64,000 nt of DNA from Marivita hallyeonensis. GTDB lineage: Bacteria > Pseudomonadota > Alphaproteobacteria > Rhodobacterales > Rhodobacteraceae. The notes under the pieces were generated by a model. That model had not been told where the DNA came from. It made no database searches and worked only from the letters and a program-made list of their open reading frames with translations. The DNA lies in NCBI RefSeq assembly GCF_900129875.1, contig NZ_FQXC01000002.1:310001-374000 (forward strand), in the 5' to 3' direction. This document shows positions 32,129 to 60,983 of this stretch, in pieces. The position numbers and the translations under genes were made by a program. How positions within the stretch are numbered: the stretch's first letter is position 1; each line of letters starts with the position of its first letter.

Positions 32129-32242
32129 GCGGTGCCCCTGTACTGCGGTGTCCAACCCCTACAAAATCGGGGCGTTATGGTCAAAACACATTCAGGTGCT
32201 GACCGGCATTCGGTTGCCTATGACGCAGGGTCACAAGCGAGT

Positions 32243-54619: not shown

Positions 54620-54668
54620 GTCAATCAAATTTGATTGCTTTCTCCATAAGAAACCATTATTGATTGAC
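54620..54668. promoter_or_regulatory. Operator-like palindrome cluster before SatD-like gene
   Basis: CAATCAAATTTGATTG (54622-54637) is a perfect 16-bp palindrome; its left half extends to GTCAATCAA (54620-54628). A third half-site TTGATTGAC (54660-54668) repeats the right half 29 bp further on, ending two bases before the SatD-like ATG. Three matching half-sites over a start codon suggest autoregulation by a dimeric HTH protein. Confidence 0.6.
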
Positions 54669-54670
54669 GT

Positions 54671-55303
54671 ATGGTGCACTACGCGGTCCTCACCGGCGAC
54701 ATTATCGGATCAAGCGCCCTGTCGGCCTTCGATCTCGACAGCACCATGCGTGCGATCAAGCAACAGTGCCGCGACATCGCGGAGTGGACCGGTGACCCCA
54801 AATCAACGTACTTCGCGCGTCGCGGTGGCGATAGCTGGCAAATCGCGCTGAGAGCGCCCCAGTTCGCCCTGCGCGCCGCCATAGCCGTTCAGGCCCGCGT
54901 GATGGCGCTGCCCTTCCATCCGACGACCCGCATCGCCATCGCGGTCGGGACAGGAAACATTCCCGACACAGGTGACATCAATGCCGCCCACGGCGCGGTG
55001 TTCACCGACAGCGGACGTCTTTTGAGCACACTCGACAGCGGAACACGGATGGGCGACGCCCGAGGCGGGGCGCGCCACGCGGCGGCCATCCTTGCCGATC
55101 ATGTCGCGCAGGGCTGGACCCCGACGCAGGCTCGGGCGATTGCGGCGGCCCTCGCCCCGAACGCGCCCACGCAGAGCGTGATCGCAAAAGACCTCGGCGT
55201 GTCACGGCAGTCGGTAAACCAGACGCTCAAGGCGGCGGGGTATTCGGCGCTCACCGCCGCACTGGCCGCAATTGAAGAACACCCATCGGAAACTGACAAG
55301 TGA
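54671..55303 (+). CDS. SatD-like regulator: cyclase-like N-domain plus C-terminal HTH
   Basis: 210 residues. The N-terminal half reads YAVLTGDIIGSSAL (Asp10) and TYFARRGGDSWQIALRAP (Asp54), then ALRAAIAVQARVMAL and TRIAIAVGTGNIPDTGD; this order mimics class III nucleotide cyclase domains, whose two metal Asp residues sit at matching points, and the SatD family. The C-terminus carries an HTH (PTQSVIAKDLGVSRQSVNQTLKAAGY, about residues 166-191). Nucleotide binding or catalysis is inference. Palindromes before it and over its stop suggest it controls itself and the DUF3307 gene 49 bp downstream. Confidence 0.72.
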   Translation: MVHYAVLTGDIIGSSALSAFDLDSTMRAIKQQCRDIAEWTGDPKSTYFARRGGDSWQIALRAPQFALRAAIAVQARVMALPFHPTTRIAIAVGTGNIPDTGDINAAHGAVFTDSGRLLSTLDSGTRMGDARGGARHAAAILADHVAQGWTPTQARAIAAALAPNAPTQSVIAKDLGVSRQSVNQTLKAAGYSALTAALAAIEEHPSETDK

Positions 55304-55348
55304 AACCGGTTTCATTTCCCCATAGCAACCCAAAACGCTTGTCGGTTT
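55290..55348. promoter_or_regulatory. Palindrome and inverted repeats between SatD-like and DUF3307 genes
   Basis: TGAAACCGGTTTCA (55301-55314) is a perfect 14-bp palindrome overlapping the SatD-like stop codon. Flanking it, AAACTGACAAG (55290-55300) and CTTGTCGGTTT (55338-55348) match as an inverted repeat in 10 of 11 positions, the latter ending just before the DUF3307 ATG at 55353. It may be an operator or an RNA structure controlling the second gene. Confidence 0.5.
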
Positions 55349-55352
55349 TCCC

Positions 55353-56069
55353 ATGATTGCCACATTCACCGCCCTCCTGTTCGCGCACGTGCTGGCCGAT
55401 TTCCTTGTTCAGACAAACACGATGGTGCGCCGCAAAACCGAGTTCGGGTTTTTCGCACTGCACATCGCCATTGTCTTCGCCCTAAGCGCCGCAGCGCTGG
55501 GCGGGGCGTGGCAAACGGCGCTCGCCATCGCCGGGCTGCATCTGATCATCGACGCGATCAAGACATGGGGGCTGACGGAGGCCCGCCGCAACACGCTGTC
55601 CGCGTTCCTCACGGACCAGGGGGCGCATGTCCTGTCGATCGCTGCCGTGGTCTGGGTCTGGCCCGATGCCATCTCAACCGGTCTCTGGGCCGACCATGTC
55701 ACTGCTGCCCTGCCGCATGTCATCCTGATCACCGGAGCGATTGTCGCGATTTTCGCGGGCGGCTACGCTGTCGGTCTGTTGATGGAGCCTTACACCGCGC
55801 AGATCGACCAAAACAAAGGGCTTGCGCAGGCGGGGCGCATGATCGGGCAACTCGAACGCGCCCTGATCTTTCTGTTTCTCATGGTGAACGAAACCGCAGC
55901 CGTCGGTTTCCTGATCGCGGCCAAGTCCGTCTTGCGCTTTGACACCGCGGCGCAGGGCCAGAAAGAGGGCGAATACGTGATCATCGGCACACTCGCGTCT
56001 TTCGGCTGGGCGCTGGCGGTCGGATTTGCCACAGAGAGCCTTCTTGAGTTTGCCGCGACCAGCCCCTAA
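55353..56069 (+). CDS. DUF3307 membrane protein
   Basis: 238 residues with about seven membrane segments. DUF3307 hallmarks are LLFAHVLADFLVQTNTMVRRK (His12-x3-Asp16, Gln20), LHIAIVFAL (His37) and GLHLIIDAIKTWG (His63-x3-Asp67, Lys70). Two HxxxD pairs inside membrane helices could hold a metal or form an active site. Paired with a SatD-like regulator in many bacteria as far as I know; function unknown. Confidence 0.82.
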   Translation: MIATFTALLFAHVLADFLVQTNTMVRRKTEFGFFALHIAIVFALSAAALGGAWQTALAIAGLHLIIDAIKTWGLTEARRNTLSAFLTDQGAHVLSIAAVVWVWPDAISTGLWADHVTAALPHVILITGAIVAIFAGGYAVGLLMEPYTAQIDQNKGLAQAGRMIGQLERALIFLFLMVNETAAVGFLIAAKSVLRFDTAAQGQKEGEYVIIGTLASFGWALAVGFATESLLEFAATSP

Positions 56070-60203: not shown

Positions 60204-60983
60204 ATGTTGCAGGAAATCTCTCACCCCACGCCCCATCCCGTGGCCTTCGTCGGCGCCGGCCCGGGTGACCCTGAGCTTCTGACGGTCAAGGCCCTGCGCG
60301 CGTTGCAAACCGCCGATGTGGTGATTCACGACCGATTGGTGAGCGAGGATATCCTCGCGCTTGTCGGCCCTCACACGCGATTGCGCAATGCCGGGAAAGA
60401 AGGGTTTGGCCCTTCCATCCCCCAATCCGCGATCAACGCGTTGATCATTGAAGAGGCCCGCACCGGCGCGCGGGTTGTCCGTCTGAAATCCGGTGATCCC
60501 ACCGTCTTTGGACGCCTGGACGAAGAGCTTGACGCGCTTCACGCGGCAGGCATCGGTTATACCATCGTGCCCGGTCTGACATCGGCCTCCGCAGCCGTTG
60601 CAACTCTGGGCCAGTCCCTGACCAAGCGTGGTCGCAACACCGCTGTGCGCCTTGTCACCGGTCATGACATGCAAGGCTACGCTGATCAGGACTGGCGGAC
60701 ACTCGCGCGCAGCGGGGAAGTCGCCGCAATCTACATGGCCAAACGCGCGGCGCGGTTCATTCAGGGGCGGCTTCTCATGCACGGTGCCGATCCGCAGACC
60801 CCTGTAACCATCGTCGAAAACGCGTCCCGCGCCGACGAGCGCATTGTGACCGCGACACTGGCCACCCTGCCCTCGGCTCTCTTTGCGTCCGACGTCACCG
60901 GCCCCGCGCTTCTGATGTACGGCCTCGCACCGCGCGACGCCCGGATGACCCACACGATGCCCCAGCAACAGGAGATGATCTGA
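60204..60983 (+). CDS. cobA: Uroporphyrinogen-III C-methyltransferase
   Basis: 259 residues from ATG 60204, which has AGAGGA at a seven-base spacing; an earlier ATG at 60177 lacks such a site. AFVGAGPGDPELLTVKALRAL, RLKSGDPTVFGRLDEELDAL and VPGLTSASAAVATLG are the SUMT fingerprints. It makes precorrin-2, leading to siroheme (and cobalamin). Here it heads the operon that needs siroheme for sulfite reductase. The stop overlaps the next start (TGATG). Confidence 0.95.
   Translation: MLQEISHPTPHPVAFVGAGPGDPELLTVKALRALQTADVVIHDRLVSEDILALVGPHTRLRNAGKEGFGPSIPQSAINALIIEEARTGARVVRLKSGDPTVFGRLDEELDALHAAGIGYTIVPGLTSASAAVATLGQSLTKRGRNTAVRLVTGHDMQGYADQDWRTLARSGEVAAIYMAKRAARFIQGRLLMHGADPQTPVTIVENASRADERIVTATLATLPSALFASDVTGPALLMYGLAPRDARMTHTMPQQQEMI

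Follow-up and report, generated by a model that had tools for sequence, protein, structure and literature searches.

We analyzed two adjacent genes, hereafter S and D, of Marivita hallyeonensis (NZ_FQXC01000002.1). They lie in a stretch of 64,000 nucleotides covering positions 310,001 to 374,000 of that contig, which we call the window. A previous sequence-only reading had described the products of these genes as a SatD-like regulator and a membrane protein, and the two open reading frames agree with that description (Table 1). Our analysis suggests, with a probability that we put at about 0.72, that S is a one-component autorepressor whose sensor domain derives from a nucleotide cyclase and which controls the output membrane protein D. 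The C-terminal helix-turn-helix (HTH) of S would bind tandem 18-bp operators over its own promoter. In the window, and in some relatives with a gap between the genes, it would also bind operators before D. Judging from the position of the operators, bound S would keep the expression of D low. The palm domain of S, which seems to descend from class III cyclases and has kept both metal-binding aspartates but lost the cyclization asparagine, would most likely bind a metal-nucleotide or a similar ligand without making a cyclic nucleotide, and this binding could release the operators. D would be the output of the system.

The two genes are consistently found together, as a survey of their neighborhoods revealed. 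A search for S gave matches in 68 of the 292 genomes of the order (Rhodobacterales). Four of these matches are weak and lie inside proteins of 330 to 596 amino acids, all classed as Guanylate_cyc by Pfam. In all the remaining 64 loci, window included, D is directly downstream on the same strand. The distance between the genes ranges from -17 to 153 bp; they overlap in 36 of the 64 loci and are separated by at least 40 bp in 25 (49 bp in the window). The source genome has a single match to each gene. We also searched a sample of 299 genomes of the phylum, where DUF3307 is present in 24: nine of the same family, seven of another one (family f8, with a short DUF3307), and eight from other classes. 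Among the latter, S precedes D in all seven full-length loci, and the short one (G379) lacks S. Finally, we took from named genomes the best 80 of 586 confirmed matches to the profile of D. S is directly upstream of D in all 80, split into two frames in one case (L189), although this set leans toward S-linked D because the profile was built from such proteins. The record titles assign these loci to Pseudomonadota (mostly Gammaproteobacteria), Bacteroidota, Balneolota, Chlorobiota, and Acidobacteriota, and their commonest clusters of neighboring genes are each confined to one lineage. From locus to locus, the percent identity of S correlates with that of D (r 0.84, 11,026 pairs), a value that includes shared ancestry. 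DUF3307 is commoner than S in the order (147 of 292 genomes), and many of the listed matches are in short open frames (about 120 to 200 codons), a few of which have an internal stop. These short frames are perhaps a separate subfamily.

Conserved operators accompany the pair. In 150 loci (64 of the order and 86 others), we searched the 120 bp before S and found similar 18-bp inverted repeats (6-N6-6) arranged in pairs, with a spacing of 28 bp in 50 loci, of 29 bp in 26, and of 30 bp in 12, whereas dinucleotide shuffles of the same regions gave at most 0.3 pairs per spacing. Third copies occur at 56 to 60 bp. Perfect repeats with spacers of 5 to 7 bp are also in excess, both in the order (36/64 loci versus 6.3 in shuffles) and in the other loci (54/86 versus 22.4). 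The half-site varies by lineage, e.g., GCAAGC, GCAACC, GTAACC, or ATTACC. Counting the regions before S and the gaps between the genes, tandem pairs are found in 99 of the 150 loci; when the gap is at least 40 bp long in the order, 11 of 25 loci have a tandem pair inside it. In 12 genomes searched with the GCAAGC-type pattern, the exact site is present at S-D in all 12 and the exact tandem pair in 9, and no tandem pair was found away from S-D. The spacer of the proximal operator resembles TATAAT (at least five of six bases) in 11 of the 30 order loci with an upstream pair and in 16 of 60 other loci, versus 3/30 and 6/60 for the distal operator. Because the operators overlap the presumed promoter, we infer that S is a repressor of its own expression. 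The proximal operator ends 0 to 6 bases before the start codon in 21 of these 30 order loci. In the window it ends 3 bases upstream of the start codon of S, as in many relatives, and the S mRNA may thus be leaderless.

The window itself has four such sites, which we ranked among all positions of the 64 kb using a matrix built from 101 sites of the order with the window left out. They form two pairs, S1-S2 before S and D1-D2 around the gap, each with the 29-bp spacing conserved in relatives (Table 1). The only other site among the first four ranks (rank 3, position 32233) lacks a high-ranking partner and looks like a chance match. The sequence-only reading had noted a perfect 16-bp palindrome with a third half-site before S, and both are indeed there (54622-54637 and 54660). 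It had also noted a 14-bp palindrome at the stop codon of S; this palindrome exists (55301-55314) but is out of register with the operators that we identified (55296-55313 and 55325-55342), the second of which is additional to the sites described before. By length alone, palindromes in the window are near chance (3 versus 1.5 expected over 64 kb for arms of 8 bases, 7 versus 6.5 for arms of 7), and these sites are more than chance because their tandem layout is conserved in relatives. Two further perfect 16-bp palindromes lie near each other (60343-60358 and 60431-60446), with sequences unlike the operators.

Which protein reads these operators? The claim that S has a C-terminal HTH is borne out by the helices in its AlphaFold model (Table 1), and window S matches Pfam HTH models, all below their cut-offs. 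We searched for covariation between residues of S and bases of the half-site, which could be defined in 99 loci; a subset with less than 60% identity has 54. The recognition helix begins with residue 179, and in this subset the residue goes with base 1 of the operator: Arg with G in 29 of 31 loci, Gln with A in 12 of 15, Lys with A in the single case, and Pro, Ala, or Thr with T in 6 of 7. No other residue-base pair scores as high, either in the order (z 10.2) or, taken separately, in the other loci (z 12.3). The agreement for Arg, Gln, and Lys (42/47) compares with a maximum of 32 in 20,000 permutations. In addition, Lys at residue 184 is found with C at base 5 in 15 of 15 loci, versus 7 of 39 for other residues. 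In the unreduced set, Gln179 is found with A in 21 loci and with T in 13; the latter cases are probably in part register shifts in A+T-rich sites. Since residue 179 covaries with base 1, S very likely reads the tandem operators. It would combine a domain that reads DNA with operators at the promoter of its own gene, as expected of a one-component regulator. The proposal that S controls itself and D through palindromic sites gains support from both the tandem layout and this association, which are evidence at the level of sequence.

Several results weigh against this interpretation. The pair formed by residue 179 and base 1 was picked after a scan of all pairs and scored without a tree. The top 20 pairs include 5, 5, and 4 within residues 164 to 190 in the three sets, when about 2.8 are expected by share, and residue 87 of the palm domain scores 10.0 in the order, close to residue 179. 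With looser criteria, seven extra loci gave a candidate pair in five: two fit the rule for base 1 (L222 and L258), two do not (L254 and L256), and one is of low complexity (L253). No candidate pair was found under these criteria in L255 and L257. Under one criterion, pairs are present in only 39 of the 64 order loci (upstream or in the gap) and in 60 of the 86 others (upstream only), and the window itself fails it because S2 and D1 are degenerate. The sample contains three more genomes of this genus, all of which lack S, and none of the solved structures compared with D matches it. Finally, when at most one mismatch is allowed, operator-like sites number 37 in the source genome, versus 3 for the reversed pattern, which makes further targets possible. 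Single operator-like sites that resemble each other are also found away from the S-D promoter in two related genomes (G025:C1:1753711 and 1864481; G026:C1:1107817 and 997028), and these are possible targets as well.

Autoregulated and often overlapping genes (36/64) would also be expected if S-D were a toxin-antitoxin or abortive-defense unit, with S restraining a harmful D, and the carriage of the pair by plasmids is in line with this idea. A tblastn search with the D of Flavobacterium retrieved 18 plasmid records, of which we examined six: Segatella copri, Vibrio lentus, Sphingomonas insulae, the archaeon Haloplanus, a 2.1-Mb Fusobacterium record, and Escherichia coli pEC34A. Profiles identified both genes in all six and in one viral contig, with a weak match for the Fusobacterium S (E 1.2e-7). 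The mobilizable pEC34A (L257) has only 3,770 bp, and S-D is its sole cargo besides the annotated Rop, MobA, and a small hypothetical gene; its S is matched at 99% or more by six sequences, its own and those of five Klebsiella plasmids, and at 93% by one more. Yet, the neighborhood is fixed in the order: homologs of the window FeS_assembly_P and Fe-S_biosyn proteins, which we take to be SufT and SufA, are within the fetched stretch in 62/63 and 63/63 loci, respectively. In the window, the pair is flanked by the Fe-S_biosyn gene and a TfoX_N gene. Furthermore, D is found after sufT without S in eight examined loci (L123 to L130), which have no tandem operator pair between sufT and D, and PADLOC models match neither window protein, nor the S of L159. 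The S of L171 has one weak PADLOC match over its HTH (PDC-S05, E 0.0043). We regard a toxin-antitoxin or abortive-defense function as unlikely. In the Sphingomonas insulae plasmid (L255, 2201-6652), the annotated neighbors of S-D are a Pycsar effector family gene, a gene for an E2 domain-associated cysteine-rich protein, and one for a cyclase-domain protein on the opposite strand; this region is possibly a defense island.

The candidate sensor of the autorepressor is the palm domain. S has the palm fold of the catalytic domain of class III nucleotide cyclases, and the two segments proposed to hold the metal aspartates, GDIIGSS (Asp10) and RRGGDSW (Asp54), do align with those of Ma1120. Asp10, Gly53, Asp54, and Gln57 are invariant in the 150 aligned S proteins, whose mean pairwise identity is only 29%; both aspartates are also invariant in the 64 aligned proteins of the order. 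The operators and the residue-base rule require no ligand, and S could be a ligand-free autoregulator in which the palm domain merely holds the dimer and sets the dosage of D, but four invariant residues at such a low identity are more in keeping with a binding site than with a scaffold, and we give this alternative little credit. The position of the cyclization (transition-state) asparagine, taken from the alignment with genomic cyclases, has Asn in only 1 of the 150 proteins (Thr in window S), and the position after it in 22. The transition-state arginine position has Arg in 55, including window S. Because the cyclization asparagine is so rare, S is probably a sensor rather than a cyclase. 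Hence, an active cyclase signaling to D, as in Pycsar-type defense (a cyclase with a membrane effector), is very improbable: the fold, the metal aspartates, a cyclic UMP synthase that Foldseek places at rank 34 (E 1.5e-3), and the Sphingomonas neighbors speak for it, but the catalytic positions, the lack of PADLOC matches for the window proteins, and the apparent reading of its own operators by S speak against it.

The assignment of D to DUF3307 (PF11750) is clear, with 59.8 bits for a cut-off of 23. AlphaFold models it as an all-helical protein with high confidence (mean predicted local distance difference test score of 95.9). The sequence-only reading had described two HxxxD pairs; the His/Asp pairs are there, but they are three instead of two (H12-D16, H63-D67, and D88-H92). 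Together with E168, R169, K191, R195, and E207, which are invariant in 149 of 149 proteins, they suggest transport or catalysis, and D is probably a transporter or a membrane enzyme. Its C-terminal half (residues 118 to 238, 55704-56066) is strongly conserved, e.g., in GRxIGxLER and EYVIIGTLxSF, and has no match in Pfam at E up to 1. We found no structure or family that explains D. The window protein also matches the phage family phrog_2470.

Table 1. Positions of the S and D genes, key codons, and candidate regulatory sites in the window.
Feature	Positions	Strand	Remarks
Gene S, class III cyclase-like palm domain (about residues 1-148) and C-terminal HTH	54671-55303	+	210 aa
Gene D, DUF3307 membrane protein	55353-56069	+	238 aa; Pfam domain at residues 5-102
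Asp10 codon of S	54698-54700	+	Aligns with first metal-binding Asp of class III cyclases (Ma1120, genomic cyclases)
Asp54 codon of S	54830-54832	+	Aligns with second metal-binding Asp (Ma1120, genomic cyclases)
HTH region of S, residues 164-190	55160-55240	+	AlphaFold helices 168-175 and 179-188; residue 179 covaries with operator base 1
Arg179 codon, start of recognition helix	55205-55207	+	
Candidate operator S1, TCAATC-N6-GATTGC	54621-54638	.	Holds the 16-bp palindrome; rank 2 of window 18-mers
Candidate operator S2, GAAACC-N6-GATTGA	54650-54667	.	Left half degenerate; holds the third half-site; rank 4
Candidate operator D1, ACAAGT-N6-GGTTTC	55296-55313	.	Degenerate; spans the end of S, overlaps the 14-bp palindrome; rank 18
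Candidate operator D2 in the S-D gap, GCAACC-N6-GCTTGT	55325-55342	.	Rank 1
Presumed promoter of S	54635-54663	+	-35 TTGCTT (54635-54640), weak -10 TATTGA (54658-54663); read by eye

These results may have implications beyond this locus. They join two families of unknown function into one testable unit of regulator and output that spans several phyla, and they provide a case of an enzyme fold apparently recast as the sensor of a transcription factor. The operators and the residue-base rule give a handle on the ligand of S and on the role of DUF3307. In a broader and more doubtful scenario, S could found a widespread class of transcription factors, present in bacteria and at least one archaeon, where a cyclase domain became a sensor of nucleotides or second messengers; the Arg-G/Gln-A rule at residue 179 would predict their operators, and D would represent a novel type of membrane enzyme or transporter, carried by plasmids as a stand-alone cassette. 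The literature that we searched has no description of S as a regulator.

How does this pair compare with known systems? The claim that S is SatD-like stands for its relatives rather than for the window protein. S proteins from Flavobacterium and Balneolaceae pass the cut-off of the SatD model (PF16264, 29 bits) with 32.5 (L171) and 33.1 (L174) bits, i.e., two of nine scanned relatives from other groups, and both match the iterated profile of S. The model does not match window S, even at E up to 1, and only 1 of the 64 order members has one at E up to 0.01. An archaeal protein annotated as SatD family is directly before DUF3307 and matches the S profile at 5.6e-21. By sequence homology, S belongs with the proteins that pass this cut-off, and its membership of SatD holds by descent only. 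The family is named after the sat operon of Streptococcus mutans (SatCDE), where SatE is presumably a DUF3307 protein. The operon differs from the window, whose scanned neighbors are Fe-S assembly and TfoX_N proteins. In one report, the cluster with SatCDE is described as two- to threefold upregulated with fructose and is listed among the pathways triggered by hyperosmolarity (PMC12077213), which by analogy is a hint at a stress response only. An annotation study of Fusobacterium assigns acid resistance to the SatD family, and DUF3307 is mentioned in a phage-genome paper.

The closest enzymes are the class III adenylyl and guanylyl cyclases (e.g., Ma1120 and Rv1900c), with which S shares the fold and both metal-binding aspartates. 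It differs from them in the changed cyclization asparagine position, in the lack of conservation of the arginine, and in carrying a fused HTH with which it apparently reads operators. An ATP-binding protein of Pseudomonas aeruginosa described as class III adenylyl cyclase-like (6yii) can be likened to S by its fold. D shares its domain with the other members of DUF3307, but adds the conserved C-terminal half. In cassettes of the TetR/TetA type, the repressor gene has operators over its promoter and a membrane protein is the output. The layout of S-D is alike, whereas the fold of the sensor and the membrane protein are different.
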